Part shown: positions 11,283-53,815 of the stretch, in pieces
How the letters are laid out: every line of letters starts with the position of its first letter
Numbering within the stretch: position 1 is the first letter of the stretch
Origin: an uncultured Prolixibacteraceae bacterium
Lineage (GTDB): Bacteria; Bacteroidota; Bacteroidia; Bacteroidales; Prolixibacteraceae
DNA length: 64,000 nt
NCBI GenBank assembly: GCA_913063265.1
Contig: CAJXZG010000017.1
Location: forward strand, 1-64,000
Reading direction: 5' to 3'
The notes under the pieces: generated by a model
The model's database searches: none
What the model was told of the DNA's origin: nothing
Seen by the model: only the letters and a program-made list of their open reading frames with translations
Program-made: the position numbers and the translations under genes

Positions 11283-11588
11283 TTACGTATGCATAAAAAA
11301 TTGACAGTATTTTATTTTTGACAAATTAAACCATTTTTCTCAAATAATTACACATCAAATAATACAGAGCAAGAAAGCGATAGATAAATTTCCTGTTAGC
11401 CGGATTACAAGGTAGTATTTTTTCAAATTTTTAATAAAATTAAGTGGATGTCAAGTAAAAGGATTTTTTTGCCGAATTAATTCTGTCAAGATTTTTCAAC
11501 AAAAAATGTTTAATTTGCTTATTAAATTCAGTTTGCAGAAAATGTATTAATTTGAATTATCCAAATGTTATTTTAAAGCAAAAGTAAA
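11283..11588. other. Divergent intergenic region of the polyamine genes
   Basis: This 306-base AT-rich gap separates the divergently transcribed arginine decarboxylase and carboxynorspermidine dehydrogenase genes and must hold both promoters. TTTG-containing and TTAATTTG-like sequences are present near 11530-11555, but I see no clear pair with correct spacing, no riboswitch and no small gene. Confidence 0.5.
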
Positions 11589-34959: not shown

Positions 34960-36861
34960 ATGAAAAAGAATTGGGGAAATCTAAAAGACAAAGAGATTAA
35001 GCTCTTTCAAAATCAACTTAGAAAATTATCAAAAAATGAAATTGATGATCGATTTATTAAAACCAAGGATGAAGTACAGTTTAAAATATTTACCAAATCT
35101 GACAGGGCTATTGCCGGTGGTTTAGATATCGATTTAGGAGAAGATGTTGACATTGAAGAACAAAGCAGAGAGGTCACATTTAGCAGAAGTCCGCAAGACG
35201 CCGAAGAAATAGACATTGAAATGTCTAAAATTCAGGAAATTGAGGAGATAGAGGAAAATGTAGTTACATTGATATCGCCGGAAGATTTCGATTATGAACC
35301 TGAATTATCGCCGGAAGATTTGGCAGCTGCAAAAGATATTGATAAAGAGATGGTTAAACTAAGCGACTATTTTGATTCCAATACGGCAGTTTCAACCACA
35401 AGGTCGGGAGAAATGACCGAAATGGCAGCTTCTTTGCCAAACTCAATAGATCATCGAATATCGCAATCGAATGTAAAAAGCCAGGGTAGTCGGGGTACAT
35501 GTGTAGCCCATGCAAGTTGCGGAGTTCTGGAAGCTTATAATCACATTCCTGATGACCTTTCAGAACAGTATCTTCATTATAAGTTTAATGAGTTTATGAA
35601 CAGGCCGCAAAATGCCAATCAGGGTTTAAAAACTACTAATGCAGCGATTTACCTGTCTCGGTCTGATGGTCGAATTTGTGAAGAACAAGACTGGGTTTAT
35701 ATGTCGCAGGGAGCGATAAACAGTGCGGTGGCAGCAGGAACTTATGCGCCTCCATCGAGTGCCACCAATAATCAGGATTTTGGTATCTCGAGTTATAAAA
35801 TTATTACCGACAAAGGTTTAACCGGCGACAGTATTAAAAACACACGTTATCTTGAAGCACTTTTATACCAGGGGTACAATGTAGTGATTGGTACCTGGGT
35901 AAGCTGGGACGACAAGGATAATAATGGTATTTTGGATCCTGTACTTGACAACAGCGGCAATCCGGTCGGACAAGGTGGACATGCCATGTTGGTGGTTGGA
36001 TATAATCGTTCAAACCAATATTTTATTGTGAAAAATTCCTGGGGTGCAGGATGGGGGCACAGCGGGTATGCTTATTTCCATTATAATTTGATAAAAACCT
36101 GTTTCAAATATGGTTTTGTAGTGAAAGAACCTGTTCCAAGAGTACCCAAAAAAGTACCATTATACTTACTTAGGGCACCATTTTCAACTGCAAAAATTAG
36201 TCGCTCAAGACTTCGGGGAGCCATCGTTGGATTTAAAAGCTCAAGAGGAAAATATGCAATTGCAGAAGTTTATGCCGGAACCAATCTTTTATTAAAGAAC
36301 ATAAAAGTATTCAATCCTGATGGTACAGTTTATTTAACCAAACCAAGTTTGATTATCAGGGGAACGTATTTATGCGATATTGATACTGCCCGCGAAACCA
36401 GGTATGGTGCCGACTTCTGGTGGCAAGCCGTTCGACCGGGAGTAAATTATCTGGTTCCCAGAGGAGGTGCTTCAGCTTGTGTTTTGTACGATTTTGCCAA
36501 TTTAAGTGCATCAAGTATCAGCCGGTACAATTTATACACCAATCCACTTTCAAATAAGTACCTTGATTATGGAGTAATAATCGGACGTACCACGGCAAAC
36601 AGAAGGTTTAAAATGGTAGTTGACGGACAAAATCCGGATAACAGCTTAAAAATAAGCTACCTGGTTATTTATAATTCTGACGGTTCGAGATACAAATATG
36701 CGACTAACCTGAAAGTACCCTCATCGTGGACTTACAACCTGGATACGCTGCGATTAAGCGGTTCTTATGCCGACATCTGGAATCATGTTATTTCTGATGG
36801 AGTTAGTTTCCTTGAAGTTCTTCGAAATTCAAAAATGAGAATATTGTGGTATTTAAGGTAA
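34960..36861 (+). CDS. Papain-like cysteine protease (C1 family), no export signal
   Basis: A 633-residue C1 peptidase. Residues about 1-160 are a highly acidic region with DIDLGEDVDIEEQ and two SPED(F/L) segments, probably an inhibitory propeptide. The catalytic domain (about 160-400) has Gln175 and Cys181 in KSQGSRGTCVAHA, the His in GGHAMLVVGY and the Asn in FIVKNSWGAGWGHSGYAYF. The last about 230 residues are beta-rich with two similar halves (ISRSRLRGAIVGFKSSRG..; KYLDYGVIIGRTTANRRFK..). The ATG at 34960 (MKKNWGNLKDKE) is preferred over an upstream one at 34885. No signal peptide or T9SS tail is seen. A small gene overlaps its 3' end. Confidence 0.85.
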   Translation: MKKNWGNLKDKEIKLFQNQLRKLSKNEIDDRFIKTKDEVQFKIFTKSDRAIAGGLDIDLGEDVDIEEQSREVTFSRSPQDAEEIDIEMSKIQEIEEIEENVVTLISPEDFDYEPELSPEDLAAAKDIDKEMVKLSDYFDSNTAVSTTRSGEMTEMAASLPNSIDHRISQSNVKSQGSRGTCVAHASCGVLEAYNHIPDDLSEQYLHYKFNEFMNRPQNANQGLKTTNAAIYLSRSDGRICEEQDWVYMSQGAINSAVAAGTYAPPSSATNNQDFGISSYKIITDKGLTGDSIKNTRYLEALLYQGYNVVIGTWVSWDDKDNNGILDPVLDNSGNPVGQGGHAMLVVGYNRSNQYFIVKNSWGAGWGHSGYAYFHYNLIKTCFKYGFVVKEPVPRVPKKVPLYLLRAPFSTAKISRSRLRGAIVGFKSSRGKYAIAEVYAGTNLLLKNIKVFNPDGTVYLTKPSLIIRGTYLCDIDTARETRYGADFWWQAVRPGVNYLVPRGGASACVLYDFANLSASSISRYNLYTNPLSNKYLDYGVIIGRTTANRRFKMVVDGQNPDNSLKISYLVIYNSDGSRYKYATNLKVPSSWTYNLDTLRLSGSYADIWNHVISDGVSFLEVLRNSKMRILWYLR

Positions 36862-37256
36862 ATTCTATAATTTTAGTGCACCTTTTATGGTGCACTATTA
36901 TTTTGGGAACTTTTAGCTTTATTCAAATCCAGAATAATACTGAAATAAAAAGTATGAAAATTAAAATTAACGCAGAAAAAACACAACAATTTGAAGCATC
37001 TGTAAACGATACTATTGTGTTGGAATCTCTTAGGGAATCTGTTGTTCCGCCTTATTTGATGCTTATGCCTTTTTGCGATCTACCGCCTTCCCTTCAACTC
37101 ATTGAAACACAATCGTTAAATGAAGAAGGTGTACACGGTGTAAATTTTGTAATTAAAGTTATAGAAAATATGGATGGGAAAATAACTACAGGTTTTAAAG
37201 ATATACAAAGCGGAAAAATTACCCATCAGAAAGTTATTGATTTTAATATAGATTAA
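36846..37256 (+). CDS. Small protein overlapping the C1 protease gene; possible inhibitor
   Basis: A 136-residue frame from a GTG at 36846 overlapping the protease stop by 16 bases; it then has an N-terminal hydrophobic segment (IILVHLLWCTIILGTF). A second start, the ATG at 36954, gives a 100-residue soluble protein beginning MKIKINAEKTQQFEAS. The longer form reads through a perfect hairpin, so the shorter may be right. The body, with FEASVNDTIVLESLRES, NEEGVHGVNFVIKV and ITTGFKDIQSGKITHQK, has the length and strand rhythm of chagasin-type inhibitors of papain-like proteases. The diagnostic NPTTG, GxGG and RPW loops are not present, so this is only a hypothesis. Confidence 0.55.
   Translation: MVFKVNSIILVHLLWCTIILGTFSFIQIQNNTEIKSMKIKINAEKTQQFEASVNDTIVLESLRESVVPPYLMLMPFCDLPPSLQLIETQSLNEEGVHGVNFVIKVIENMDGKITTGFKDIQSGKITHQKVIDFNID
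36875..36896 (+). terminator. Perfect stem-loop just after the protease stop codon
   Basis: AGTGCACC and GGTGCACT form an 8-bp perfect stem with loop TTTTAT, 13 bases past the protease stop, followed by ATTATTTT. It could attenuate transcription between protease and downstream gene. Confidence 0.6.
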
Positions 37257-39268
37257 TAATCTAAGGGTAACCATACACTCATATCAGCAACTCCTCTATT
37301 TGCCCATGTGTAATAAGGAATCAGTTTTATTTTAAAGTTTTTTAATTCAGGTTTTTTCAAGTCCTGGTACATGGTATTATCCCAGTTTTGTCTTTCGAAA
37401 TACTTTGCTTCTCCTTCTAAAGTTGTTACGCCGTTCAATAATTCTCCTTCGTATTTTGGTTTTAGTTTAACATCAACGGGCAGTACAACCTCATCAACCT
37501 CAACTCCTTCAGGTAAATCAATTTCTTCCAGAGTATAAAGAATTGGTCCTCGTTTTACTGCAGCCTGGTTAAAAGTTTCTTCAATCTTTGGATTTCCAGC
37601 AACAAGACGGGCATCCATCGGAAAGTTGATTTCGATTTTATTTTTATACTTTTTCAGATTAGTAACTGTGGCATAAGTTCCAGCTTCAACATCTTCAACC
37701 TTCTTTCCGTTAACAGAAATAGTTGCACCTTCTGCCCATTCCGGAATACGGATTTTAAATTTTTGATTCGCCGGTAGTTTTTCAATTTCTATTACAACAT
37801 TCCCTTCCCATGGATATCTTGTTTTTTGCTCAAAAACTATATCTCCATCATCATATCGGTTCGCACCATAGTGATGCACCCAAAGCGTATTCTCCGATTT
37901 TGAATACAACATTCCCTGCAATTCAACTAAGGAACGGGAATAGTTTGTGGGACAACAAGTACCGATATTTTCCGAGCCCGGTACTCCCCTTTCAAGCGCT
38001 GAATTTCCTAGTAAAAACTGATCGTGACCATGCCAGCGCAACGGATTTACATAGAAAAAACTTTTACCATCCTGTCCCATACTTCCCAGGAAACCATTGT
38101 ACATTTCATTCTCCATTACTTCTGCATATTTCGGGTTACCTGTAACACATAACATTCTGTAATTCCACATAAAAACACCAACCTGCCCGCAGGTTTCATT
38201 ATATCCCAAAGCATTTGGCTGTTGAAACGGAAGTCCCACTGCTTCATGTACATCGTCAGCAACGAAAACCCTTCCATCTTTTCTAATTCCAATACCGCGA
38301 TAAAGAGCACAGGCTCCTCCATGTATATATAATTTATGCTCCATTAAATCCCTCCACATTCGGTCTAATGCATCAAAAAGTTTTTTATCTCCTGACTCCA
38401 AATATACATCGGTTGCTCCTGCAAAAAGGTAAGTGTACCATACAGCATGCCCAACAACCTCATTGTCATCTTTTAACGGAACTCTATCCTGGTATAGATC
38501 TGTACCTCCTTTGAATTTCCCTCTTTGGTCAACTACCAATTTTGCCAACTCCAGATGTTTTGGATCATTTGTTTCACGATACATTTCAACAGCACCCATG
38601 ATCATAGATGGATTTAGTGGGAAGTGAGCCATTTCTTCGTTATGATTTTTAAACATATCATAAGCATAATCACAAACTTTTTTGGCTACACCGAAATATT
38701 CTGTTTTTCCTGTTATTCGGTTGTGTAAAGCAGCAGCAGTCATTAAATGTCCCATATTATACCATTCATGACGATGAGGATTTTGAAATCGTTTTTCACC
38801 TCTTACAATTATGTTTGTTGAGATGTATCCGTCTGTTTGCTGTGCTTTCGCAATAAGGTCAATAATGTAGTCCATATGTTTATCCAGCGCTTTATCGCCC
38901 GTTACAGCATAAGAAATGGCGGCCATTTCAATCCACTTATGTAACCAGGCATCCTGCCAGTCATTGCCTTTGTACTTCCCTTCCTTTAATCCGGCTGCAA
39001 TTTCCAGATTATGAACAGATTTTCCCTGGTCTTCGATATTCATAACCTCGTATAAATGTGGAATGGTAATTTCATGAACCATGTCAACACGGTCTTTCCA
39101 AAAACCATCTATATAGGTTACATCGGTAAGATTAATGCTTTTTAATTTGGCGTAGGGACTGTTTTCAGTATTTACTACATGGGAGCAAATTGATTTGTGA
39201 CTATCCTGAGCTTTAACAAGCAAATTCTCAGTCAAAATCAAAATTATCAATATTAAAACTGGTCTCAT
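37253..39268 (-). CDS. Secreted GH127 (DUF1680) beta-L-arabinofuranosidase family
   Basis: A 671-residue protein with a signal peptide (LILIILILTENLLVKAQ). It matches GH127: LTDVTYIDGFWKDRVDMV at the start of the alpha/alpha barrel, the metal-site and catalytic pieces NETCGQVGVFMWNYRM (Glu and Cys) and IGTCCPTNYSRSL (Cys pair), then C-terminal beta-sandwiches. The characterised family member removes beta-L-arabinofuranosyl units with a zinc-bound cysteine nucleophile. The exact sugar here is not proven. Last gene of a tight minus-strand operon, 17 bases after the DUF4832 gene. Confidence 0.88.
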   Translation of the reverse strand: MRPVLILIILILTENLLVKAQDSHKSICSHVVNTENSPYAKLKSINLTDVTYIDGFWKDRVDMVHEITIPHLYEVMNIEDQGKSVHNLEIAAGLKEGKYKGNDWQDAWLHKWIEMAAISYAVTGDKALDKHMDYIIDLIAKAQQTDGYISTNIIVRGEKRFQNPHRHEWYNMGHLMTAAALHNRITGKTEYFGVAKKVCDYAYDMFKNHNEEMAHFPLNPSMIMGAVEMYRETNDPKHLELAKLVVDQRGKFKGGTDLYQDRVPLKDDNEVVGHAVWYTYLFAGATDVYLESGDKKLFDALDRMWRDLMEHKLYIHGGACALYRGIGIRKDGRVFVADDVHEAVGLPFQQPNALGYNETCGQVGVFMWNYRMLCVTGNPKYAEVMENEMYNGFLGSMGQDGKSFFYVNPLRWHGHDQFLLGNSALERGVPGSENIGTCCPTNYSRSLVELQGMLYSKSENTLWVHHYGANRYDDGDIVFEQKTRYPWEGNVVIEIEKLPANQKFKIRIPEWAEGATISVNGKKVEDVEAGTYATVTNLKKYKNKIEINFPMDARLVAGNPKIEETFNQAAVKRGPILYTLEEIDLPEGVEVDEVVLPVDVKLKPKYEGELLNGVTTLEGEAKYFERQNWDNTMYQDLKKPELKNFKIKLIPYYTWANRGVADMSVWLPLDY

Positions 39269-40788: not shown

Positions 40789-42192
40789 CTATTGAATCGA
40801 ATACAAAGCAGAGCAATGTGGTTGAAGAGAAAGTTCAATATGTGATGCTGATTTTACGACTTCACTTTTGTGCCATAAGTCACGAACATCAGCATTACCG
40901 GAAACTCCAAAAGTTTTTAAATCGATATTTATACTTCTAACATCTTCCGAAGTATTGATTATCGCAGCATATTTAATCTTCTCACTTTCATGATCAGCAA
41001 TCCAAATGCTAAGTCCATTATCAAACGATATCTCTCTATTATTTTTTGAATGTTGGTTTACTGTTAAAACTTCTTTGTTGCTTAGCAACGAAAGTGTATA
41101 ATCATCGTTCTCCGGCATGTTCCCTCCAAACATTAGCGGAGAACGGAAGATTGCCCAAAGCGTCATTACAGTTTTTTGTTCCTCTTTCGTAAAACGGGTG
41201 AATTGGTTGGCAATATTTTCATATTTATCTTCAAGCAAACCGGCTACCCATTCATCGGCACCTGTAACCCTAAGTTTTCCAAAAGGCAGCATATCCAAAT
41301 CAGGCCAGGCACCATTTTGTATATGAGGATACCATTCCTGCGCATATCCTAACTGACGTAAAACAAATTTCCAGTGATCCCAGAAATCATTTGAGATTCT
41401 CCAAAGTTGGGCATGTTCAGATACATGATCCGCAGCTGTTAATGGTGTAGCTCCCGGCGACAAGCTCAAAACAATATCACGGCCACAATTATCGATAGCT
41501 TTGCGTACCATTTCAATCTCTTGTTGACGATATGGGCGCGAAATATCATCAACTTTAACATAATCGATTTCCCATTCAGCATACAATTTAAAAATAGAAT
41601 TATAATAATCCTGCCCCCCTTTTTCTTGGTCAATACCTTTCATACTTTTATTCCACTCGCATAAATTTTCGCTAATGGCAAAATCTTTTGGTTTAACCTC
41701 GGACCCGAAAACAGGCATATTCTTTTCCACAGCATCCCATGGAACACCGCGCATAATATGAATTCCAAATTTTAATCCTTTGCTATGTACATAATCTGCC
41801 AGAGGTTTAAATCCCTTACCCCCCTTCGCCGATGGGTATTTTTCCAAATCCGGTATCAATCTTCCAAATTCATCAATTGAATGTGGAGGATTTTCACGGT
41901 GACCATCATTGGTGGACATATCAAAGGGATAATACCAGCCCATATCAACAACAATATATTCCCATCCAAAATCCTTAAGGTGCTCTGCCATGTAATCGGC
42001 ATTGGCTTTAACAACTTCCTCATTGGTTTCAAAACCAAAACAGTTCCAGCTATTCCAACCCATTGGAGGTGTTTTGGCAAGCATAGCTGAATGTTTCTCC
42101 AGATTAACCTGAGATTTATTTTTTTGATTACAGGAATTTGTAAAAATTGTGAAAGACAAGATTACAAGTAATGAAAGAACAGATTTATTCAT
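40789..42192 (-). CDS. GH27 alpha-galactosidase, lipoprotein
   Basis: A 467-residue protein with lipobox TNSC (Cys about 21). GH27 features are KTPPMGWNSWNCFG, WEYIVVDMGWYYP, IDYVKVDDISRP (the Asp of KxD is the expected nucleophile), LSLSPGATP and AQLWRISNDFWDHW with the expected acid/base Asp. ALWAIFRSPLMFGGNMPEND and the C-terminal beta-sandwich complete the fold. It would remove terminal alpha-galactose, or beta-L-arabinopyranose in some GH27 members, at the cell surface. First gene of the GH27-DUF4832-GH127 operon. Confidence 0.9.
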   Translation of the reverse strand: MNKSVLSLLVILSFTIFTNSCNQKNKSQVNLEKHSAMLAKTPPMGWNSWNCFGFETNEEVVKANADYMAEHLKDFGWEYIVVDMGWYYPFDMSTNDGHRENPPHSIDEFGRLIPDLEKYPSAKGGKGFKPLADYVHSKGLKFGIHIMRGVPWDAVEKNMPVFGSEVKPKDFAISENLCEWNKSMKGIDQEKGGQDYYNSIFKLYAEWEIDYVKVDDISRPYRQQEIEMVRKAIDNCGRDIVLSLSPGATPLTAADHVSEHAQLWRISNDFWDHWKFVLRQLGYAQEWYPHIQNGAWPDLDMLPFGKLRVTGADEWVAGLLEDKYENIANQFTRFTKEEQKTVMTLWAIFRSPLMFGGNMPENDDYTLSLLSNKEVLTVNQHSKNNREISFDNGLSIWIADHESEKIKYAAIINTSEDVRSINIDLKTFGVSGNADVRDLWHKSEVVKSASHIELSLQPHCSALYSIQ

Positions 42193-42842: not shown

Positions 42843-43997
42843 ATGGGAAAAAAATTTACAATAGAAGACAAAATCATAAGTCTAAAAGTAGACGATGCCT
42901 ATGCTGTTTGGTTTAAAGCTTCAAAAAAGTTTTTATTACTTGAAAAACCGGCATTTTTTGTACTTGATTTAATACTCAAGGATTTTCAAGTAAATGACAT
43001 TATTAAAAAATTTTCATCCCTTTATAAATATCCGCTTGTAGAAGTTGAAAGTTTTATTACTGAAATAGCTGTAAAATTTAATCAATTTTTAGAATCTCAA
43101 ACTGAACAAAATAATACTTTGGAAAGCAAGATGGTACCGGATATAAGTGAGTCCATTTTTTTTTCAAAAAGGGCATATAAAATTGGTGAAAAACAATTAA
43201 ATCTTTTCTATGGTGATAAAGAACTGGAATTTGTAATCCACCCCTTGATTTCACATTTTGAACTTTACAAATCTGAGATTAAAGCAAAGAAGTATTTTAT
43301 TTACCGACAATCAGGAAATATAATATTTCAAATTGACAATGAAATTACAGAGCAGTTTGAACATCATGAAACAGGATTTCTTAAAGCTGCTTTCCTTCTT
43401 AGAATGTTAAGTTTCGTGCACCATGTCGACTATGAAGACTGGATGATAACTTTGCATGCTTCGGCAGTTAGTTTTGAGAAAAATGCCATATTATTTTCGG
43501 CAGCAGCAGGAAAAGGAAAAAGCACATTATCTGCATTGCTTCATGCCAATGGATTTCATCTGTTGTCTGATGACTTTCTTGCCATGAATGTTATGAACCG
43601 AAAAATTTACCAGGTACCGGTGGCTACAACGATAAAAAAAGGTTCCTATGAGGTTTTGCTTCCCCATTATCCCGAGTTGGAAAACCTTTTGCTTGAGAAA
43701 GCCTATACAGGAAAAGAAGTGCGGTATTTACCGATAAATACCAATCTAAATGTTGGGAATGGTTATCCGGTAAGAAAACTGGTTTTTGTGGAATACTCAA
43801 AAAAGAAAGAGTTCTCTTTTTTGAAAATGGATAAGAAATCTGCAATAAAAATCCTGCTGGAAGAAACCTGGATAAAACCAAACCTGCAATGTGTAACAGA
43901 ATTTTTTAACTGGTTTGACGAAACACAATTTTTTAGTTTGATTTATTCAGAAACAACACAGGCCGTAAAAATTACAAAAGAGTTGTTTTCTAAATAA
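42843..43997 (+). CDS. PqqD-like domain fused to HPr kinase-like ATPase
   Basis: A 384-residue protein of two parts. Residues about 5-90 resemble PqqD (RiPP recognition element): DDAYAVWFKASKKFLLLEKPAFFVLD, then a helical IIKKFSSLYKYPLVEVESFITEI. Residues about 200-384 resemble HPr kinase/phosphorylase C-terminal domains: LHASAV (His205), a Walker A-like SAAAGKGKSTLS (about 219-230, first Gly replaced), and LLSDDFLAM with Asp243-Asp244. PqqD domains bind leader peptides, and HprK-like proteins phosphorylate some lasso peptides, so a leader-guided peptide kinase is a reasonable inference. The small peptide gene just downstream on the other strand (24-base stem between) is the natural candidate substrate. 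No radical SAM or lasso cyclase gene is seen. Confidence 0.72.
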   Translation: MGKKFTIEDKIISLKVDDAYAVWFKASKKFLLLEKPAFFVLDLILKDFQVNDIIKKFSSLYKYPLVEVESFITEIAVKFNQFLESQTEQNNTLESKMVPDISESIFFSKRAYKIGEKQLNLFYGDKELEFVIHPLISHFELYKSEIKAKKYFIYRQSGNIIFQIDNEITEQFEHHETGFLKAAFLLRMLSFVHHVDYEDWMITLHASAVSFEKNAILFSAAAGKGKSTLSALLHANGFHLLSDDFLAMNVMNRKIYQVPVATTIKKGSYEVLLPHYPELENLLLEKAYTGKEVRYLPINTNLNVGNGYPVRKLVFVEYSKKKEFSFLKMDKKSAIKILLEETWIKPNLQCVTEFFNWFDETQFFSLIYSETTQAVKITKELFSK

Positions 43998-44033
43998 AAA
44001 CACCGTGCCAAACTAAATTAACACGGTGTTTTT
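43996..44033. terminator. Bidirectional terminator between kinase-like gene and peptide gene
   Basis: AAAAACACCGTG and CACGGTGTTTTT form a perfect 12-bp stem with a 14-base loop. T-runs on both strands let it serve both convergent genes. Confidence 0.9.
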
Positions 44034-44044
44034 AAATCTTGTTT

Positions 44045-44221
44045 TTACCAGGCCGGTGGCGGAGCAGGAGTAGAACCCTGTGCTTTTGCAGGTGTTTTCA
44101 TCAGCAGCATCATTGATGCTGTAGTTAATGAAAGCAGACCTGCTTTTTTTAAAGCCTGTTTCCTGGTCATTACTTTCTTTTCAGATTTATTCTCCTGGTT
44201 TTTATTGATATCTTTTTTCAT
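44045..44221 (-). CDS. Small precursor-like peptide with PAPPPAW tail
   Basis: A 58-residue peptide from the ATG at 44221 (66 if the ATG at 44245 is used). It has a basic N-terminal half (KKDINKNQENKSEKK), a twin-arginine-like MTRKQALKKAG, a hydrophobic stretch LLSLTTASMMLLM, a signal-peptidase-like site (PAKAQ) and the short tail GSTPAPPPAW. I do not recognise a named family. It follows the T9SS protein gene by about 37 bases on the same strand, so it is probably cotranscribed, and it ends at the shared terminator facing the PqqD-HprK gene. A secreted or modified peptide (RiPP-like) is my inference; a tiny membrane-anchored protein is the plain alternative. Confidence 0.62.
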   Translation of the reverse strand: MKKDINKNQENKSEKKVMTRKQALKKAGLLSLTTASMMLLMKTPAKAQGSTPAPPPAW

Positions 44222-44257
44222 ACTTCTATATTTTGATTTTATCATTTTAAAATTATG

Positions 44258-46219
44258 CTATTGCTCAACAACAAATTTAACAGGTTTATATTTATTCGCA
44301 TCCATAACTTTAACAAAATATACACCAGGAGTAAAGTTTGAAATACTTACACGGTTTAGACTTTCTGAACTTACATCAAATTGGTTCATTAATCGTCCAT
44401 CAATTGCATAAACCATAATTTGTGCATCTCTGCTAACTTTACCTTTTATGTATAGGTTTCTATCAATGGTGTAAACTGAGATACCAGTATTATTTAAATC
44501 CTCATCTACACTTGTTTGAAGAGCCGCTCCAACATGGAGATAGAATCTTCCGGTTCCGTTGTTTCCTGATTCTACATCAGCAACATAAATTTCTCCATTC
44601 GAAATATCACTGAAGTTACCAGCAAGTCTGTCTTCCAGTACAACCTCATATCCGAATGGCAGGTCAAATGATTGAGCAGAAAAAACAACTTCGCCTCCAT
44701 TTGTAGCATCCAGTCCAATTGGAATTTCATAACTGTCGTTTGCCTTTCCCGGTAACCATTGAATATCAAAATCAACACCATTGTCTTCTACTAATCGAGT
44801 ATAAAGGTCAAAACCTTTTCCACTTTTAAGTATACCTGCATCGTAAAAGCGATCAAGACCTAAAGTCATATCTTCGTTAAAATTAACTTCAGTAGAACTA
44901 TAAATCTCTCCGGATTTTACTTTTAAGGTTAAACCTGATGGTCCTATATCAGCAGATTTTAGTGCTTCACCCGTGTCATGAACCTGCATAGATTGATTAA
45001 AGTTAACACTTCCGCCGCTAGCTGCCTTTACAAAGAATCCCTGACCCGATGCTACGTTTACATTTCCTGATCCCATATTAACAGCGGTGTATTCGTCTGC
45101 ACCTCCATCCCACATGTAAATTGCTTCAAAGCTTGGTGCAAATACTGATTCGTTTTCTTTTAAAAATCCAATAGCTTCCTGAGTAACTAACATGGCTGAA
45201 GGAAACGGATTACCAACCAAATTCCAACCATTTCCAGATGTAGCAACTCCTGTTGAAGAATTACCAATTGATAACGATCCTGAAAAAGTTACAACTCCAC
45301 TGGCATCAATTCTTGCTCCAAATCCAACACCTGGAGTTAAACTATTTGCCGAAATATTATAATCCCACGTATCGCTTGACTCAACATACTGAATTAATCC
45401 GTCATTCGTTCCGTTATTTGATATACTTGCATTTGCAGCGAGAAAAGTTGCAAAAGTTTGTCCGGTTACAGGTGAAGATAACATGTGCCATAAAGTTGAA
45501 GGCAAATATCTTTGAGCAGTAACAGTAGTAGAACCGCTTACTCCGTTGGCAACAACCAATGATCCCGTACCACTACCATCTGATTGAATCGTTAAAGTGG
45601 ATGCACCTGAGAATGATAAACTTCCACAATACATTTCATCTGTTGGATAAATTATTGGTTGATTTGTAGGTCCTAAAACAGGAAGTACTACATCATTATT
45701 TGGTTCAGGAACTCCACTCGGTGTCCAATTAGAAGGCCAATTCCATACTCCAAAAAATGCTCCATTAAATGTTTTTGTTGTATTTCCTGTACTTAATTGC
45801 ACAAAAGCAGTTCCATTAGCTGAAAAAACATTTGGAATTGGACTATTCCCTGCATCTTCTACAACCGGAATAATATTGGTATGTTCAATACCAGCACTAC
45901 TATCCCAAAATCGGAAGTACATCGTATTACCAGAATTAAAACCATTTAAAGCTCCTACTGAAGATTCTGCTGAAGCATTAATTGATGGTAGAGGAATGGC
46001 AATTGGGCCGGTAAGTTCTAATACACCGCAACATAAGTTTCCATCAAAAACAGCTATTTCGTCTCCAGCCTCAAGAGGAACACCATCTATTTCAGCGCTT
46101 TCTACAACAATATTCATAGGACTATAAGGATTCACACTAACATATCCTTTTTTAAAATGCTGAGAATGCACAGTTGTTGTATAAACCAATATGGCTAACA
46201 GTAAAATTAATTTTTTCAT
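44258..46219 (-). CDS. Large secreted T9SS protein
   Basis: A 653-residue protein with a signal peptide (KLILLLAILVYTTTVHS). The N-terminal domain includes EAGDEIAVFDGNLCCGVLEL, a module found again in the next two proteins. The middle holds a beta-rich, Gly/Ser/Thr-rich region with LWHMLSSPVTGQTF and GNGWNLVGNPFPSAM, common in Bacteroidota adhesins. The C-terminal type A sorting domain (about 570-653) ends INQF..FTPGVYFVKVMDANKYKPVKFVVEQ-like. It should be exported through type IX secretion. A TATTTTTG box at 46255-46248 is a likely promoter. The small precursor-like peptide follows in the same direction. Confidence 0.82.
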   Translation of the reverse strand: MKKLILLLAILVYTTTVHSQHFKKGYVSVNPYSPMNIVVESAEIDGVPLEAGDEIAVFDGNLCCGVLELTGPIAIPLPSINASAESSVGALNGFNSGNTMYFRFWDSSAGIEHTNIIPVVEDAGNSPIPNVFSANGTAFVQLSTGNTTKTFNGAFFGVWNWPSNWTPSGVPEPNNDVVLPVLGPTNQPIIYPTDEMYCGSLSFSGASTLTIQSDGSGTGSLVVANGVSGSTTVTAQRYLPSTLWHMLSSPVTGQTFATFLAANASISNNGTNDGLIQYVESSDTWDYNISANSLTPGVGFGARIDASGVVTFSGSLSIGNSSTGVATSGNGWNLVGNPFPSAMLVTQEAIGFLKENESVFAPSFEAIYMWDGGADEYTAVNMGSGNVNVASGQGFFVKAASGGSVNFNQSMQVHDTGEALKSADIGPSGLTLKVKSGEIYSSTEVNFNEDMTLGLDRFYDAGILKSGKGFDLYTRLVEDNGVDFDIQWLPGKANDSYEIPIGLDATNGGEVVFSAQSFDLPFGYEVVLEDRLAGNFSDISNGEIYVADVESGNNGTGRFYLHVGAALQTSVDEDLNNTGISVYTIDRNLYIKGKVSRDAQIMVYAIDGRLMNQFDVSSESLNRVSISNFTPGVYFVKVMDANKYKPVKFVVEQ

Positions 46220-46275: not shown

Positions 46276-48909
46276 TCAATTCAATATAATTTTTTTAAAT
46301 GTATCATTAACTCTGCACAAATAAATTCCCGGGGCTACCTTATTTCCATTCATATCAGCACCATCCCATTGTACATTAATATTTCCTTGTGTTTTACCCT
46401 TATACAACTGAATCACCTTTCTTGATGACAAATCATAAATTTCCACAACAATAATCTCATTCTTAACCGATTTTACTGAGATATTTAAAACTTCGGTAAA
46501 TGGATTAGGATAAAAACTTAATTGATAATCATTGTTATTAATTTCAGAGTTTGAAGTGACAGTAGATTTCAATTCAAGAAATACAGTACCATTTTTTTCA
46601 AATGTTAAGGAATTTCCATCTACAGGAATTACATATAAATCAGACTCAACACCATTTCTAAAAAGTTTCAGACTGATATCATTACCCTGAACAAAACCAT
46701 CCTTGAATTGAGTGAGATAATCATCAGCTGAAGCAGCTAAACTTATTACAGGAGTATCTTCATTATTTAACTTAAATGAACCAACACACTGCTCTCCATC
46801 AAATACACCAATTTCATCATCAATTTGAATTTCAGTGCCAGAAAGGTTAACTATACTTACATTCATATGATTAACACCTTTTCCTTTAAAAACCGGATTA
46901 AAATAGCTTGTTTCTGCTAATATTTTATCAAACTGCGCTGACTTGGCAACATCTTCTGTTATTGTTAAGGTACTTGCTTCTGTAACATTTACTTTATACC
47001 CTTTCCCCGGTTTTAAATTGCCGATAAAATTTTGCCAACCACCATTATCAACACCATAATCCTCTATAACATTTCCTTCTTCATCAATCACTTTTTTAAG
47101 TACACCATCATTTATTAAGTCCTGGAAAACATCCAGACCATCTTGTTCATTCATTGAGGGCCATGAAATTATATTCCAACCAATACTTAGATTTATATCA
47201 AATGGCAACTGGGACTTAGTCCCCTGAACCTGGAGGTTAGCATCTGCCAATACATTTATTTGATATCCTTCGGTGTCTACTATATCTCCAATGTTATTTT
47301 GCCAACCACCATTATCAACACCATAATCTTCAATAACCTGACCACTTTGATTGATAACTTTTACTAGTTTACCTTCATCAATTAAGGGTTGTAAAATATT
47401 TTTTAGGTTTATATCATCAGGCATAACCGGCAATGAAAATAAATTCCATCCAGTAGTAAAACTTAAATCAATACTACCACTAAGAATTAGTTCTATTTCT
47501 CTACTTGATAAAGTTAAACCTGACACCAACGAATTAGTTACTTCGCAGTGATAAATGCCTTCGTCCTCCTGAGCAATAACCGGGATGTCAAGTGTTGCTG
47601 TAGTTTGAGTTCCCAGAATTGAACCGTCTTTATACCATTGATAACTGTTTTGAGTGCCACCTGTGTTCAAAGTGTAACTATAAGAATCTCCAATTGCCTT
47701 TATTACATTTTGCTTATCACCAATGCTATCCTGAGGATTATAAAATAGGCTAATTGCAGGTTTTAAATCCATATTAGGCTCTAAGTCTGCAAAAGTTAAT
47801 TTATTATTGTCAACCCGCAGTTCCAACAAACTGTTGGGTACAGTTAAATCAGGAATTGATGTCAATTGGTTAGAGTTCAGATACAACCATCTCAAACTTG
47901 TCATTACAGATAAATCAGCAGGGATTGTACCGGAGAATTGATTTTGGTTTAAATAGAGTAACTGAAGATTTGATAAATTCCAGATTTCGACCGGAATATC
48001 TCCTTCGAATAAATTATCGCTCAAATTCAACCATGAAAGTCCTGTTAGTAATCCTAATTCAGTTGGAACTAAATTAAGTTCGTTTCCATCCAGATAAAGC
48101 AATTCCAAACTTAACAAGCTCCCCAATTCAGAAGGAATTGCACCGGTTAACTGGTTTTGCCCCAGGTTTAACCAGCGAAGGGTGGTCAATAGTCCTAATT
48201 CAGTTGGAATTGTATTTACCAACTGGTTCCCGTTTAAGTATAACTGTTCAAGCTCAGAAAGGCCTCCCAATTGCGTTGGAATATTTCCGTCCAAAAGGTT
48301 CTCTCCTAAATTTAACCATTTAAGATTTGATAAACTTCCTAATTCTGTTGGTATATTTCCGCTTAATTGATTTTTAGATAATTGTAAATATTCAAGTTGG
48401 GACAATAAACCCAGTTCTGTTGGAATTGCTCCACTTAATTGATTATCTCTTAAGTTTAGCCATCTGAGATTTGACAGTAATCCCAATGAACTTGGAATAT
48501 TTCCTGTTAACTGATTTCCTGATAAATATAATTGTTGTAAAACTGCCAGATTCCCTAATTCAACGGGAATACTTCCTGAAATATTATTGGTATCCAATTT
48601 TAAAAATTCAAGAAATGTTAACTGTCCAAGACTGGAAGGAATTGTACCATCAAGATTGTTTTTATCCAACTCAATCTCAATTATCTCGTCTCCCAAAACA
48701 GTAATTCCATACCAGGTACTTACAGGCTCAGCGCTTCCCCAATTAGTATTGTTGGTCCAACTATCTCCATTTGTTGAAGTATATAGATCCAGCAATATTG
48801 CTTTGTCATCCTCAGATACCTGCGCAAACAATTGATTGCTTGCAAAAAGAAAAAGTACATTCACTAATAAAAGTGAAATCATTTTTGAAAAAGATACACG
48901 TGTTTTCAT
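46276..48909 (-). CDS. Leucine-rich repeat protein with Ig-like and T9SS domains
   Basis: An 877-residue secreted protein. The signal peptide ends near LFAQ. About residues 30-370 are plant-type leucine-rich repeats (LxxLxxLxLxxNxLSGxIPxELGxL, over a dozen), followed by an Ig-like segment (NSYQWYKDGSI.. YHCEVTN) at about 400-470. Two copies of a module containing IEDYGVDNGGWQN and then a DEIGVFDGEQCVGSF module come next. The T9SS sorting domain at the end has LSFYPNPFTEVLNISV and WDGADMNGNKVAPGIYLCRV. Probably a surface adhesin. It lies 56 bases from the next T9SS gene. Confidence 0.87.
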   Translation of the reverse strand: MKTRVSFSKMISLLLVNVLFLFASNQLFAQVSEDDKAILLDLYTSTNGDSWTNNTNWGSAEPVSTWYGITVLGDEIIEIELDKNNLDGTIPSSLGQLTFLEFLKLDTNNISGSIPVELGNLAVLQQLYLSGNQLTGNIPSSLGLLSNLRWLNLRDNQLSGAIPTELGLLSQLEYLQLSKNQLSGNIPTELGSLSNLKWLNLGENLLDGNIPTQLGGLSELEQLYLNGNQLVNTIPTELGLLTTLRWLNLGQNQLTGAIPSELGSLLSLELLYLDGNELNLVPTELGLLTGLSWLNLSDNLFEGDIPVEIWNLSNLQLLYLNQNQFSGTIPADLSVMTSLRWLYLNSNQLTSIPDLTVPNSLLELRVDNNKLTFADLEPNMDLKPAISLFYNPQDSIGDKQNVIKAIGDSYSYTLNTGGTQNSYQWYKDGSILGTQTTATLDIPVIAQEDEGIYHCEVTNSLVSGLTLSSREIELILSGSIDLSFTTGWNLFSLPVMPDDINLKNILQPLIDEGKLVKVINQSGQVIEDYGVDNGGWQNNIGDIVDTEGYQINVLADANLQVQGTKSQLPFDINLSIGWNIISWPSMNEQDGLDVFQDLINDGVLKKVIDEEGNVIEDYGVDNGGWQNFIGNLKPGKGYKVNVTEASTLTITEDVAKSAQFDKILAETSYFNPVFKGKGVNHMNVSIVNLSGTEIQIDDEIGVFDGEQCVGSFKLNNEDTPVISLAASADDYLTQFKDGFVQGNDISLKLFRNGVESDLYVIPVDGNSLTFEKNGTVFLELKSTVTSNSEINNNDYQLSFYPNPFTEVLNISVKSVKNEIIVVEIYDLSSRKVIQLYKGKTQGNINVQWDGADMNGNKVAPGIYLCRVNDTFKKIILN

Positions 48910-49221
48910 ATTGTCAGATTTAATTTATAATCATTAAAACTTTCAGATATAATTATCATGAAATTATTTTGCAGGCTTGAAAGAAAATGTAAATCAATAA
49001 TCCTAAAAAATCATCTTTTACAAGCTTAACAGGCAATACATAATGAACAAAAATTTTCAGAAATTTAAAAACCTTCCGTATTCATGTTAATCATTTCTAA
49101 AAAAGCGTATAAAAAATTAACAATTAACATGCCACACCCCCTAAAAACCTAACATACAGAATATTACACGCTGCAGCAAGTTTTATTCGCAGTACTATTT
49201 TGGGACAAATACTCTCATTTT
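48910..49221. other. Gap between two T9SS protein genes
   Basis: 312 AT-rich bases, presumably the LRR gene promoter region and the end of the beta-helix transcript. I see no gene or clear terminator. Confidence 0.4.
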
Positions 49222-52215
49222 CTATCTAATATCAATTATTTTGCGATGATATAGTGAACCGTTTATATTTATCCGAACATAGAAAATATCAAATGAATCA
49301 GTCCCATTTTCAACATTACCATCCCATTTAAAAAAATGTTGACCCGATGCGAGGTTGGCATTATCTGTAATAACTTCAACCAGTTGCCCCAGTTGATTAA
49401 GAATATCAATTTGTACATTGGATGCTGTTCGAACTCCAATTACAATATTTATTTCATCTCTAAAAGGATTTGGGTAACAATTCAAAGTTACATTTTCCAT
49501 TGTTTGTAAGTCGTCCGCTTTTGTAGCAAAATCAATTTTTGCAAACAAAGAACTACCTTTTTCAAATATTAATTTACTATTATTCAAAGGAGAAATCAAA
49601 GCCTTGTATTCTTTACTATTTTTATAGACCCTGATTTCAATATTATTGCCATTGGAGAATCCATTATCTATTTCAACTCCATCAGCAGCAGAAACAGGAA
49701 TACTTATATTAGAAAATTGATTATTAACCAATAAAACTTGATTTAAAATTCGAGTTGAACCTACACAAATATTACCATCAAAAACTCCTATTTCATCACC
49801 TGCTTCAATTCCGGAACCTTTTATATCTATTAAATTAATGGACATATGATCTGTCCCATTCCCTTTATATGCAGGCACGAAATATTTTGATTCAGCCCAT
49901 CCCTGAACAATTACATCGGATTTCGCATAACTTTCAGACAAAGTTAGAACACATTCAGAGGTTACATTAATTTTATAGCCCTCTCCCGGTTTAAAATTCC
50001 CAATATAATTTAGCCAACCACCATTTTCTATTCCATAATCCTCTATAACTTGACCAGATTCATTCAACACTTTTATTAATTTTCCTTCATCAATAAGTGG
50101 TTGCACCACGTCTATTCCATTTTGTTCTTCGCTGGTTGGCCATGAAATTATATTCCAACCTGTACTCAAAGGAACTGAAAATGGCATGTTTACTGTATAA
50201 CCTTCAATTTCAAGAATACTTTCTCCGATTACATTGATATTATACCCCTCTTCTTTTTTCAAATTTCCAATATTATTTTGCCATCCCCCATTTTCACTTC
50301 CGTAATCTTCGATAACCTTGCCGGCTTCATCAATTACTTTGTTTAATAACCCAGCATCAATAAGTGGTTGCATAATATTTAACATATTTGAATCATTTGG
50401 CAACACTCTTGATGAAATTATATTCCACCCCTCTGTTAAACCAATCGTTTGATTTTGCCAATCCGGATCAACAAATTCGTGAATTCCCATATCAAACTCG
50501 GGTCCATGCTTTATCGAATTACCAAAATAATCTTGCGAACCCGGATTTATCCCGAATTCACCGTTTAAATCTAATCCTGAATTGATTAGCGGAGAACTTT
50601 CTGTAAGTTCATAATCATCAACAGAACTTAAAATTGTTGGATCTGTTAATGTCGAACTTCCTGGATTTTTCAGCAAAGGATTTGCATACATTCCAACTAT
50701 TTCTCCATTCAACATTTCGTTGTTATTATCCTGCGCCCATGTTTCAAAATCATAAGTAACCGCACCAATCTGAAACAGTCCGTTTAATGAGAACCAACAA
50801 TTGGCCTGAAAAGTCTCTCCGCTTATTCCGTTGTAAACACTTTTATCTTTTGAAACAAAAATGTTATTTCGAAAATTAAAATTTGAATTATTATTGTCTA
50901 AAAATGATAGCGCGGGACCACTTGTGTTATATATAACATTATTATAAAACTCAAACCCCTCAAAGTTACTACCAATAGATGTACCATTCCATACAATTAC
51001 GCTTCCGGTTCCGGTAACATTTCCATCATTTTCACTAATACAATATCTAATGGTATTATTACCCCAATCTGTAGCATTGGAATATTGGAAAATTCCAAAA
51101 CCCGCACCATGATTATTATATGATAAACAATATTGAATAGTTGAGTTGGTAGTACCGCCATCCAAATCAAAACCCAAACCATCATATTTACCTGCTGGTG
51201 TTTTATTGTCATGTGAGATACAATACTGAATTAACACATTATCAACCTCCGCTACCCAAATACCTCCAGGTCCGTTATTATTAATGTTTTGCATATCCCA
51301 GCCATTATTGGAGGCTTTGCAATATTCAATAATCACATCGCTGGCATTATAGGCTAAGATTCCACTTCCGCTATGACTTGTTGTTACTGTTGGATCTCCG
51401 GGATTATTATCTGCAACACAATATCCAAAATATGCATTTGTAACTGAAGTTTTATTCTCTCCAATAATACATATCCCATAATAACCGTTTTCGTAGGCAT
51501 AAATGTTGGTAAACCTGAAATTACTACCAGAGATTGAGACTACCAGTCCAGAATGTTGAAAACCATAAATATCAACACTATCAACGCTGACATCAGTGCA
51601 GGATTCTATCAAAACACCATCTCCTTCATTTCCATCATTACGTCCATTTCCCCTAAAATTGAGATTTTTAATTTGTATAAAACTTGACCCATTTGCTTCA
51701 AATCCAGTTCCATTCTGCGCATCAATGATTGCTCTTTCCGAACCATATGAATCAAGATAAATGCTATCGGTTAAGGTTCCTGAGTCATTTAAATCAAAAA
51801 GTATATTCCCCTGAAAAGTTTCTCCTCCCTGAAAATAAATCCTATCTCCCGGTTCAAAATCAATGCTGTTTATTTTGTCAATAGTCTGCCATGCTTGGTC
51901 AGGAGATGTTCCAGCATTACTATCATCACCCAAAGGACTTAAATAATATGTACCCAAACCACCTGATTTAACAATTGTACCTTCTTTCAATAATAAAGAC
52001 TTTGCCCTTTTTTTTATTAGGGGTTTAACACCTTTTCGATAAGTCAAATTTGCATTTTCTAAATGAATAGATTCATCCTTAAAAATTTTCTTATCTGTTT
52101 CATTTTGCGCAGATGAAGGCAAGAATAAAAAAATCTGAAACAGTAGACTTAATAAAGCAAATCTCAGTATAAATCTTTGAAGCTTTAAAAACTTTTTGAA
52201 ATTACAAGTGTCCAT
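49222..52215 (-). CDS. Right-handed parallel beta-helix protein with T9SS domain
   Basis: A 997-residue secreted protein with an N-terminal signal (FALLSLLFQIFLFLPSSAQ). YYLSPLGDDSNAGTSPDQAWQTI opens a DUF1565-like/parallel beta-helix region (about 85-590) typical of polysaccharide lyases and adhesins, with repeated NxxIxYCxSxxN turns. Two copies of the IEDYGxENGGW module and one EAGDEIGVFDGNICVGS module follow. A type A sorting domain ends it (LNCYPNPFRDEINIVIG; FFKWDGNVENG). Catalytic residues for a lyase are not identifiable by eye. It shares both modules with the LRR protein next to it. Confidence 0.85.
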   Translation of the reverse strand: MDTCNFKKFLKLQRFILRFALLSLLFQIFLFLPSSAQNETDKKIFKDESIHLENANLTYRKGVKPLIKKRAKSLLLKEGTIVKSGGLGTYYLSPLGDDSNAGTSPDQAWQTIDKINSIDFEPGDRIYFQGGETFQGNILFDLNDSGTLTDSIYLDSYGSERAIIDAQNGTGFEANGSSFIQIKNLNFRGNGRNDGNEGDGVLIESCTDVSVDSVDIYGFQHSGLVVSISGSNFRFTNIYAYENGYYGICIIGENKTSVTNAYFGYCVADNNPGDPTVTTSHSGSGILAYNASDVIIEYCKASNNGWDMQNINNNGPGGIWVAEVDNVLIQYCISHDNKTPAGKYDGLGFDLDGGTTNSTIQYCLSYNNHGAGFGIFQYSNATDWGNNTIRYCISENDGNVTGTGSVIVWNGTSIGSNFEGFEFYNNVIYNTSGPALSFLDNNNSNFNFRNNIFVSKDKSVYNGISGETFQANCWFSLNGLFQIGAVTYDFETWAQDNNNEMLNGEIVGMYANPLLKNPGSSTLTDPTILSSVDDYELTESSPLINSGLDLNGEFGINPGSQDYFGNSIKHGPEFDMGIHEFVDPDWQNQTIGLTEGWNIISSRVLPNDSNMLNIMQPLIDAGLLNKVIDEAGKVIEDYGSENGGWQNNIGNLKKEEGYNINVIGESILEIEGYTVNMPFSVPLSTGWNIISWPTSEEQNGIDVVQPLIDEGKLIKVLNESGQVIEDYGIENGGWLNYIGNFKPGEGYKINVTSECVLTLSESYAKSDVIVQGWAESKYFVPAYKGNGTDHMSINLIDIKGSGIEAGDEIGVFDGNICVGSTRILNQVLLVNNQFSNISIPVSAADGVEIDNGFSNGNNIEIRVYKNSKEYKALISPLNNSKLIFEKGSSLFAKIDFATKADDLQTMENVTLNCYPNPFRDEINIVIGVRTASNVQIDILNQLGQLVEVITDNANLASGQHFFKWDGNVENGTDSFDIFYVRININGSLYHRKIIDIR

Positions 52216-52417: not shown

Positions 52418-53815
52418 CTATTTGTAATTTACAATTTCCCCATCCTTTAATTCCAAATAATTACTGAAACATTCCGGTATCTCCTCAGGAACATGTGTAA
52501 CAAAAATCATTGCGCAATTTGAATTGGACGCTATTTCGTTTAACAGATTTTTTAACATTCTTATATGTGAATTATCCAATCCCTGAAAAGGTTCATCAAG
52601 AATTAACAGTGGAGGATTTTTCACCAAAGTTCTTAAAATTAACACCACTCGCTGTGCCGAAGTAGAAAGTTCGTCAAAATTTTTATCTGAAATTTTACCG
52701 TAACCAAGTTTTTTCAACCACCGTAATGCGACATCGCGTTGATAACCTGTTGATTTTTTATATACACGTTCAATTTCATTAAATCCTGAACAGATCAGAT
52801 TCACAACATTTTGTTTCCCGGAGACATATTGGTGAAATTCCGGAGAAATAAAACCTATCTTTTTTTTAATATCCCAAATAGATTCGCCACTACCTTTTTG
52901 TTTTCCAAACAATCTTATATCGCATCCATATGCTTTTGGATTATCTCCAAAAATCATATTTAGCAAACTTGTTTTACCAGAACCATTTGGTCCCAGAAGC
53001 ACCCACCTTTCCCCTGCATTGACCTGCCAACTGATTTTATCAAGAATCACTTTATTCCCATATTTAAGCGAAACATTATTCAAATTTATTAATTCGTTAA
53101 ATTGCGAATCTGCCCATACAAAATTTTCACTACCGAGATTCAATTTTTCTGCAGTTTTTTCTCTAAACTCAGATATGAAACCGGAATGTACCATAATTCC
53201 TTCTTTTAAGAAGATAATCTTTTTTACTTCAGCAGGGAAATCATCTAAAGTTAGTCCGGTCATTACGATTGTATGTCCTTCTGATATTAAAGCATTCAGC
53301 ATTTTTGCCAAAAGCTGACGGGCATTTTTATCGAGACCTGTAAACGCATTGTCAAGCACCATTAAATCAGGATTTGAAGAAAGTGCCTTAAGCAACTCAA
53401 GTTTTCTTTGTTCACCATTCGATAAATTTACAATATGATTATTTACAAAATTTTCAAGTCCGAATGTGTTAAGAAGATGTTCTACCAGATCCTGATTTTC
53501 AATTTTCCTGATTTCATCCATTACCTTAGGTAATAGGTCTGTGTCAATTTTATTCCATCTTTGCTGTCGATAAACTTCATGCCCGTTAGATAAGGATAAA
53601 TGAGAATGAAATGGTACAAATATTTTACTCTTAAATTCATCATTACTTATATCTCCTCCAACATTTACAATCCCCAAAATTGCTTTTGCTAAAATTGTTT
53701 TACCACTTCCGTTTGGACCGATTATTCCTAATCCATCTCCCTTTTGTATTTGAAGATTAATATCTTTTAAAATCAACGACATCCTGATTCTAACATATGC
53801 ATTTTTCCATATCAT
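52418..53815 (-). CDS. Tandem ABC ATPase (ModF-like)
   Basis: A 465-residue protein with two ABC ATPase domains and no membrane segments. Domain 1 (about 1-225) has IIGPNGSGKTIL, the signature LSNGEQRKLELLKAL and LMVLDNAFTGLD. Domain 2 (about 238-465) has LLGPNGSGKTSLL, a degenerate signature LSTSAQRVVLILRTL and LLILDEPFQGLD. The layout matches ModF (PhrA), whose role is unclear despite its position near molybdate genes in E. coli. No transport partner is adjacent. The first aspartate after Walker B is followed by Asn, not Glu, in domain 1 (LDNAF), so only the second site is expected to hydrolyse ATP well. Confidence 0.85.
   Translation of the reverse strand: MIWKNAYVRIRMSLILKDINLQIQKGDGLGIIGPNGSGKTILAKAILGIVNVGGDISNDEFKSKIFVPFHSHLSLSNGHEVYRQQRWNKIDTDLLPKVMDEIRKIENQDLVEHLLNTFGLENFVNNHIVNLSNGEQRKLELLKALSSNPDLMVLDNAFTGLDKNARQLLAKMLNALISEGHTIVMTGLTLDDFPAEVKKIIFLKEGIMVHSGFISEFREKTAEKLNLGSENFVWADSQFNELINLNNVSLKYGNKVILDKISWQVNAGERWVLLGPNGSGKTSLLNMIFGDNPKAYGCDIRLFGKQKGSGESIWDIKKKIGFISPEFHQYVSGKQNVVNLICSGFNEIERVYKKSTGYQRDVALRWLKKLGYGKISDKNFDELSTSAQRVVLILRTLVKNPPLLILDEPFQGLDNSHIRMLKNLLNEIASNSNCAMIFVTHVPEEIPECFSNYLELKDGEIVNYK

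Follow-up and report, generated by a model that had tools for sequence, protein, structure and literature searches.

The combination of an RRE-HprK fusion protein, a small peptide and a cargo protein of the type IX secretion system (T9SS) described here is real, conserved and, as far as we have searched, undescribed: among the literature matches listed, with most subscription journals and bioRxiv lying outside the search, there was no paper that combines peptide tailoring with T9SS. In a marine bacterium and its relatives, a tiny peptide gene is found directly 3' of a gene that encodes a large secreted protein of the cell surface, and the locus suggests an undescribed link of peptide chemistry to the display of proteins at the cell surface. 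We regard it as fairly probable that these genes form a module for the leader-guided tailoring of a peptide, linked to type IX secretion, and we infer that the peptide itself is modified. In the window (the whole stretch of 64,000 nucleotides that was analysed) the following features were assigned:

42843-43997, plus strand: gene of the RRE-HprK fusion (ORF of 384 aa)
42843-43118, plus strand: N-terminal RRE/PqqD-like domain, predicted to bind a leader, residues 1-92 (AF2 model, PDB matches)
43104-43997, plus strand: predicted HprK/PEPCK-fold kinase domain, residues 88-384 (AF2 model, PDB and TIGR04352 matches)
43996-44033, no strand: perfect inverted repeat of 12 bp, resembling a bidirectional terminator (sequence)
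44045-44245, minus strand: small peptide gene (66 aa; 58 aa if the ATG at 44221 is the start)
44048-44080, minus strand: predicted mature tail QGSTPAPPPAW (sequence and rule-based cut after AxA)
44258-46219, minus strand: T9SS cargo gene, 653 aa (TIGR04183 and block profile)

Both ORFs and the inverted repeat lie where the earlier note on this DNA had placed them. The span that it gave for the candidate locus (42843-44245) proved too narrow: the conserved unit also takes in the T9SS gene (44258-46219), as well as a nucleotidyltransferase gene, which is part of the unit at most relative loci and in this genome is located elsewhere. The T9SS gene precedes the peptide gene on the same strand, with a gap of 12 bp, or of 36 bp when the second ATG is taken as the start; since relatives begin at about the same point as the ATG at 44221, the peptide probably starts there and comprises 58 residues. 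The arms of the repeat, AAAAACACCGTG (43996-44007) and CACGGTGTTTTT (44022-44033), enclose a 14-nt loop; given the perfect match over 12 bp and the T5 end on either strand, it is plausible that the kinase and peptide genes share a bidirectional terminator.

The Pfam search of the fusion protein returned nothing usable and missed both of its domains, so folds and relatives were needed for their assignment. The AF2 model of the whole protein, calculated from 27 sequences, has a mean pLDDT of 89.6. Residues 1-92, modelled alone (pLDDT 82.7), show the element order E-E-E-H-H-H, i.e. the three-stranded sheet followed by three helices that characterizes the RRE fold in PqqD and lasso B1 proteins, and the best PDB matches of this model are lasso B1 RREs with a bound leader (6jx3: Z 10.8, rmsd 3.0, 82 aligned residues; 5v1v: Z 10.5, rmsd 2.7, 81 aligned), after which ranks PqqD (5sxy: Z 7.4, rmsd 2.5, 77 aligned). 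Residues 88-384 match PEPCK (1ayl: Z 14.3, rmsd 5.5, 283 aligned) and HprK/P (1ko7: Z 11.7, rmsd 2.8, 125 aligned), and thus join a predicted HprK/PEPCK fold to the P-loop and DD motif of an HprK-type kinase. The P-loop SAAAGKGKST and the DD motif pointed out in the earlier note are indeed present, and the key residues G225, K226, T228, D243 and D244 are invariant in 27/27 aligned sequences (in this 27-row alignment the L160 row starts at an internal ATG, is short and lacks the RRE; in a second alignment of 22 rows the L160 row is wrong). The predicted-fold matches (lasso B1, PqqD, PEPCK, HprK/P) and the invariant residues support the assignment of a putative leader-binding domain and a putative kinase domain, as the note had proposed. 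Of the profile check that it had suggested, the HprK half gave matches of all 27 aligned sequences to TIGR04352 (HprK_rel_A) at E<=0.1 (best 3e-25), and the PqqD half weak matches of 3/27 relatives to PF05402 (best 0.0023). HprK_rel_A is the best named NCBIfam family for the kinase part (residues 201-380, 9.2e-15, below the model cut-off); with 54.5 bits against an equivalog cut-off of 200, the window protein falls outside that equivalog family. The "HPr-rel-A system" has a PqqD partner.

The peptide, judged by its pattern of substitutions, is a real gene under purifying selection. In the comparison of the window peptide with that of G017, dN is 0.17 and dS 1.47; dN/dS is about 0.03 to 0.4 in 6/9 pairs, while dS could not be estimated in the other 3/9, and these low values among relatives argue against a chance ORF. 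The concern that the peptide might be the N-terminus of a longer or non-conserved frame was not realized, as a short ORF is conserved across relatives. Among 50 loci chosen for kinase or peptide matches, 40 peptides from 26 genomes, that of the window included, match the family profile at E<1e-3. They follow a common plan: a basic start and, in nearly all, the motif [ST]R[KR]xA[IL]xK precede a hydrophobic stretch, after which come an AxA-like site and the tail; in the window peptide these are a basic N-terminus, the Tat-like MTRKQALKKAG, a hydrophobic stretch, the cleavage-like site AKA and the tail. The motif that the earlier note called twin-arginine-like is thus conserved, but a true Arg-Arg pair, the mark of a Tat substrate, is replaced by Arg-Lys in the window peptide and in 32 of the 34 distinct peptides that match the motif pattern, with Arg-Arg found in two (3/40 peptides lie outside the search pattern for the motif and were left out of the 34 distinct sequences). 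Because of this prevalence of Arg-Lys, export by Tat is uncertain. The known leader motif of lasso and LPP RREs, [YW]xxPx[LVIAFY], occurs in 0/40 leaders, so it is the fold and the pairing of the two genes that point to leader binding.

The tail boundary of the window peptide is the one predicted by a simple AxA rule; in other peptides the rule probably cuts too late (L185, L064) or finds no site (L160). Most tails predicted in this way are 9-13 residues long (28/39), 37/39 contain at least two Pro residues, and 13/39, including that of the window, have no Asp or Glu for a ring. Ser or Thr, considered in the earlier note as possible acceptors, are suitably positioned in 37/40 peptides, i.e. 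within the first four tail residues, with the first of them mostly at position 2 (24 peptides), and 39/40 peptides have Ser or Thr and then Pro within four residues, near the C-terminus. The terminal residue is Trp or Phe in 20/34 distinct sequences, and one of these two is found among the last three residues in 26/34; the Pro-Trp ending seen in the window does not hold as a general feature, as relatives end with Gly-Phe, Gly-Trp, Gly-Arg and others. The tails are nearly invariant inside G148 and inside G372, and one pattern extends across families. The slight variation of the tails within a genome makes a hypervariable antibiotic core unlikely. Two peptides (L056:9478-9792 and L057:9373-9687) have far longer tails, for which 53 residues are predicted; Asn, Gln and Ser abound in them, and a Cys is located at the presumed cleavage site.

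The family peptide could instead be an ordinary protein secreted by Tat or Sec, with the kinase and the nucleotidyltransferase acting on e.g. surface polysaccharide and the co-occurrence of the genes reflecting a common surface-assembly pathway. In the order sample the peptide profile matches 30 genomes at E<=0.01, 18 of them at 2e-6 or weaker, and among the 20 background loci inspected (18 from the order sample, 2 from the relatives set) 16 show an Arg-Arg Tat-type signal and 4 no motif; these weak matches were rejected as family members, and they lend some support to the idea of a plain secreted protein, as do the NTP_transf_5 genes of the window's own genome, which by eye lie among glycosyltransferase- or polysaccharide-like genes. 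Nonetheless we consider this explanation quite unlikely, since an RRE domain without a leader has no obvious role, the Ser/Thr just past the predicted cut is conserved, and kinase and peptide co-occur nearly one to one.

This co-occurrence was counted in three overlapping sets of genomes. Of 61 genomes (the window's own and 60 relatives), 16 have the kinase, 13 the peptide (E<=0.001) and 12 both. In an order sample of 344 genomes, 14 have the kinase (E<=1e-20), 12 the peptide (E<=1e-11) and 11 both, and in a phylum sample of 395 genomes a full-length kinase (E<=1e-70) and the peptide (E<=1e-5) occur in the same 5. With kinship ignored and with limits set post hoc (1e-11 and 1e-70 were chosen after the gap in the match lists was visible), Fisher's test gives p of 2.5e-17 for the order and 1.3e-11 for the phylum, or 3.5e-13 and 1.0e-9 when the genomes used to build the profiles are left out. 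In another 16 genomes of the phylum, matches to the kinase profile at E<=1e-8 were rejected as relatives (best 6.5e-13, partial, around the P-loop only). The conserved pairing across genomes that the earlier note would have taken as support is therefore borne out (in the order sample 11/12 peptide genomes carry the kinase), and so is physical proximity: for 13/40 peptides the kinase gene lies <=300 bp downstream, on the same strand in 12 and convergently in one, the window. The kinase was found without the peptide in G043 (broken gene), G468, G528, G019, G026 and G028, and the peptide without the kinase in G670 and G036, while G148 and G372 have six peptides and one kinase match each. The family is patchy, since 22 of 37 genomes of the window's genus (its own counted in the 37) have neither gene. 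The relatives that carry names are Draconibacterium, Prolixibacteraceae and Bacteroidota MAGs (7/8 loci); the eighth is a weak match in Clostridia.

The earlier note envisaged a minimal system of kinase and peptide. Rather, an NTP_transf_5 protein is the usual third member, as it adjoins 21/32 kinase loci (PF14907 in the two that were scanned; the 32 loci derive from 34 rows, two of which are one broken gene and one a lasso-type HprK, and some loci end at contig edges). In the window's own genome this enzyme is not adjacent to the locus, and copies are found on contigs 34 and 43. We take PsmN, discussed below, to be a member of PF14907 as well. The companion nucleotidyltransferase and the conserved kinase residues point to chemistry, which argues against a purely regulatory module. 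In such a module the kinase would sense or titrate the peptide and thereby control how the T9SS cargo is expressed or secreted, and no modified product would arise; G148 and G372, each with a single kinase match and several peptide-cargo pairs, would suit this reading, which we nevertheless consider highly improbable.

The third gene of the window locus encodes a T9SS protein with a Type A sorting signal: it matches TIGR04183 at 9.6e-08 (31.9 bits against a cut-off of 23), and PorU is present in the genome. Residues ~200-653 form a block that is common to other peptide-linked cargos; a first estimate of 235 aa for its length was rejected, and its extent is about 450-550 residues. In 35/40 cases the peptide gene lies directly downstream of the gene for a block-bearing cargo, on the same strand and at a distance of 4-269 bp (the adjacency counts for peptide, cargo, kinase and transferase all cover the 50 loci). 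The earlier note envisaged that the peptide rides on the transcript of the T9SS gene; given this linkage, the gene looks like a part of the system and not like an accidental carrier. As to the remaining 5/40, L047 and L058 have the cargo elsewhere in the cluster, L177 is the second of tandem peptides, and L056 and L057 have no block-bearing cargo; among the peptides with none beside them are those of G031 and G011. Upstream of the block the cargos differ, with 19/300 pairs matching beyond the last 550 residues (25/35 cargos were long enough for this comparison); passenger domains (fn3, GLUG, laminin-G, lamin-tail) were recognised in 5 of the 10 cargos that were scanned, and in the other 5 the sorting signal alone. 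G018 has two peptides identical in protein, and the 1.5 kb ending with the peptide are 82% identical, with short matching stretches only upstream, as if block and peptide had spread together. The window's own genome has 130 TIGR04183 matches but only 2 block matches at E<=1e-10; each of these has a peptide in its cluster and had been part of the block profile. Seven of the 130 Type A matches, on contigs 4, 17, 19, 23, 34 and 137, start at profile position >=8 and so are without the first part of the signal; they include the two peptide-linked cargos, which match only from positions 10 and 12.

The idea that the block is confined to peptide-bearing genomes was rejected. G286 has 14 block matches at E<=1e-10 and one peptide, further block-bearing genes are found in G148, G372 and G493, and among peptide-less genomes G002, G010, G014 and G501 have one strong block match each, besides which G020, G023 and G089 have a weaker one. 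Since the block also occurs without peptides, the link between peptide and cargo is strong from the side of the peptide and partial from the side of the cargo. TatC was found in 12/12 and PorU above cut-off in 12/12 peptide-bearing genomes tested. A cargo C-terminal signal that is genetically paired with a partner setting its fate is also known from the T9SS Type B CTD with its cognate PorP/SprF shuttle, according to the part of the source available to us (PMC12618676); here, by contrast, a peptide accompanied by putative tailoring enzymes takes the place of the partner, and the CTD of the window cargo matches Type A (TIGR04183).

The closest known system is that of the linear polyphosphorylated peptides (LPP) reported by Popov et al. 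2026, which that paper (PMC13381572) calls restricted to Bacillota; the string "bacteroid" has no match in its text. As described there, LppK phosphorylates Ser3 of the core and a signal-peptidase-like enzyme cuts off the leader. Both systems combine an RRE, an HprK-like kinase and an NTP transferase with a linear precursor that has a conserved N-terminal leader, both have an acceptor Ser near the start of the core (here putative) and a leader cut (here predicted) by a signal-peptidase-type enzyme, and in both cases lasso clusters and loci for capsular polysaccharide are frequent neighbours (PMC13381572). HprK, RRE and NTP transferase in one cluster, the set that marks LPP loci, are found together at 21/32 kinase loci and not at the window. 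The present system differs in the fusion of RRE and kinase, in a Tat-like leader without the YxxP motif (neither YxxPxVLxHQxIxFETxxS nor [YW]xxP was found), in a short tail whose pattern is conserved, and in the T9SS cargo that accompanies most of the peptides. LPP clusters are further marked by an archaeal-type signal peptidase and an MsbA-like transporter; at the present loci we recognised no signal peptidase that would belong to the system, and the ABC proteins noted are one in the window (52418-53815) that lacks a membrane domain and an MsbA-like one in G020.

Given the similarity of the enzyme sets, the product might be a free linear phosphopeptide, i.e. an LPP-like RiPP released as a signal or antagonist, for which the T9SS gene would provide a promoter, a receptor or a carrier. 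The second copy of the locus in the same genome adjoins a lasso cluster, as LPP clusters often do, and G020 encodes an MsbA-like ABC transporter about 1 kb from the cargo gene, which both fit a released product. LPP C-termini are highly variable, however, whereas the tails in question are near-invariant in G148 and G372 and of one pattern across families, and the tight linkage to the T9SS cargo block (35/40) is not what a free product would lead one to expect; we therefore hold this explanation to be possible but unlikely. Lasso peptides of the paeninodin/pseudomycoidin type likewise come with an HprK-type kinase, an annotated nucleotidyltransferase and an RRE, and in pseudomycoidin PsmK phosphorylates the peptide and PsmN leads to addition of a hexose, according to the available part of PMC9266682. 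Their macrolactam synthetase and B2 peptidase have no counterpart near the window peptide (Pfam found neither in the 10 larger window proteins of 34960-55865), and its leader has no lasso motif; a lasso peptide was accordingly rejected, as there is no cyclase, peptidase or leader motif.

Our preferred reading, the leader-guided tailoring module tied to type IX secretion, would operate as follows. The RRE domain would bind the leader in the cytoplasm, and the kinase would phosphorylate Ser or Thr one to four residues past the future signal-peptidase site. The NTP_transf_5 enzyme might then add a sugar or a nucleotide to that phosphate, as reported for PsmN. Next, the Tat-like (or Sec) signal would take the peptide across the inner membrane, and cleavage behind AxA would yield a periplasmic product of ~10 residues, a linear phospho- or phosphoglyco-peptide. 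This order of phosphorylation, extension, export and cutting is suggested by the likeness to the LPP and pseudomycoidin enzyme sets; the transferase step is weak by analogy, since deletion of lppN, the NTP transferase gene, led to no change in the products seen (PMC13381572, in the part available). The periplasmic peptide would work with the co-encoded cargo at the cell surface, for which the gene linkage speaks, together with one kinase match beside six peptides in a genome (G148, G372) and a constant block and peptide with changing passengers; a single kinase locus can go with several peptide-cargo pairs in one genome. Its role would most likely be in anchoring, sorting or decorating the cargo, because the passenger varies while the C-terminal block and the peptide are constant.

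The sugars that link T9SS proteins to the surface carry an amino acid (Ser, Gly or Ala) and vary among species, with further pathways expected (PMC11969387, as far as the text was available). From these linking sugars and the presence of PorU one may guess that the N-terminal amine of the peptide, set free by signal peptidase, is the nucleophile for the PorU sortase and that a phosphosugar on Ser/Thr ties the cargo to surface polysaccharide, which we would call a long shot. In that guess the peptide amine would replace the aminoacyl sugar of other species and a RiPP-like peptide would anchor T9SS proteins, a proposal that we rate just as improbable. If the preferred reading of a tailoring module is true, it joins leader-guided peptide tailoring with type IX protein secretion, extends the linear phosphopeptide chemistry of Bacillota to Bacteroidota and, through the partner cargo, gives this chemistry a testable role; it also bears on the anchoring of T9SS cargo in species whose linking group is not known.

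The second copy mentioned above (L047:6533-18166; L242, contig 34, 16000-45000) consists of peptide, cargo and RRE-HprK genes, with the kinase frame broken. The lasso cluster that it adjoins is an ordinary one, with Asn synthase, Transglut_core3, PqqD, an ABC transporter, an HprK-like protein and a precursor-like ORF with WVKPEVQ (L047:16259-16387); polysaccharide-type genes are also near. In G501 (contig 10, L246:6611-19901) a block-bearing cargo lies beside a lasso-like cluster in which HprK, NTP_transf_5 and an ORF resembling a precursor (11381-11548, WVKPEVQ...DTFSG) are found, at a locus that has neither the fusion kinase nor the Tat-like peptide. A link to block-bearing cargos of this type may thus exist for lasso peptides as well. 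In the window itself, 46276-52215, upstream of the peptide-linked cargo and on the same strand, encodes two further large proteins of T9SS type, one of 877 aa that has leucine-rich repeats and one of 997 aa that has a beta-helix, and the 877-aa protein has a counterpart at the same position in G017 (L064). Elsewhere in the window we found genes for a papain-family protease (34960-36861) and for the sugar-cleaving enzymes GH127 (37253-39268) and an alpha-galactosidase-like protein (40789-42192). Further upstream of the T9SS genes, on the same strand, 52418-53815 encodes an ABC protein that has two ATPase domains but lacks a membrane domain.
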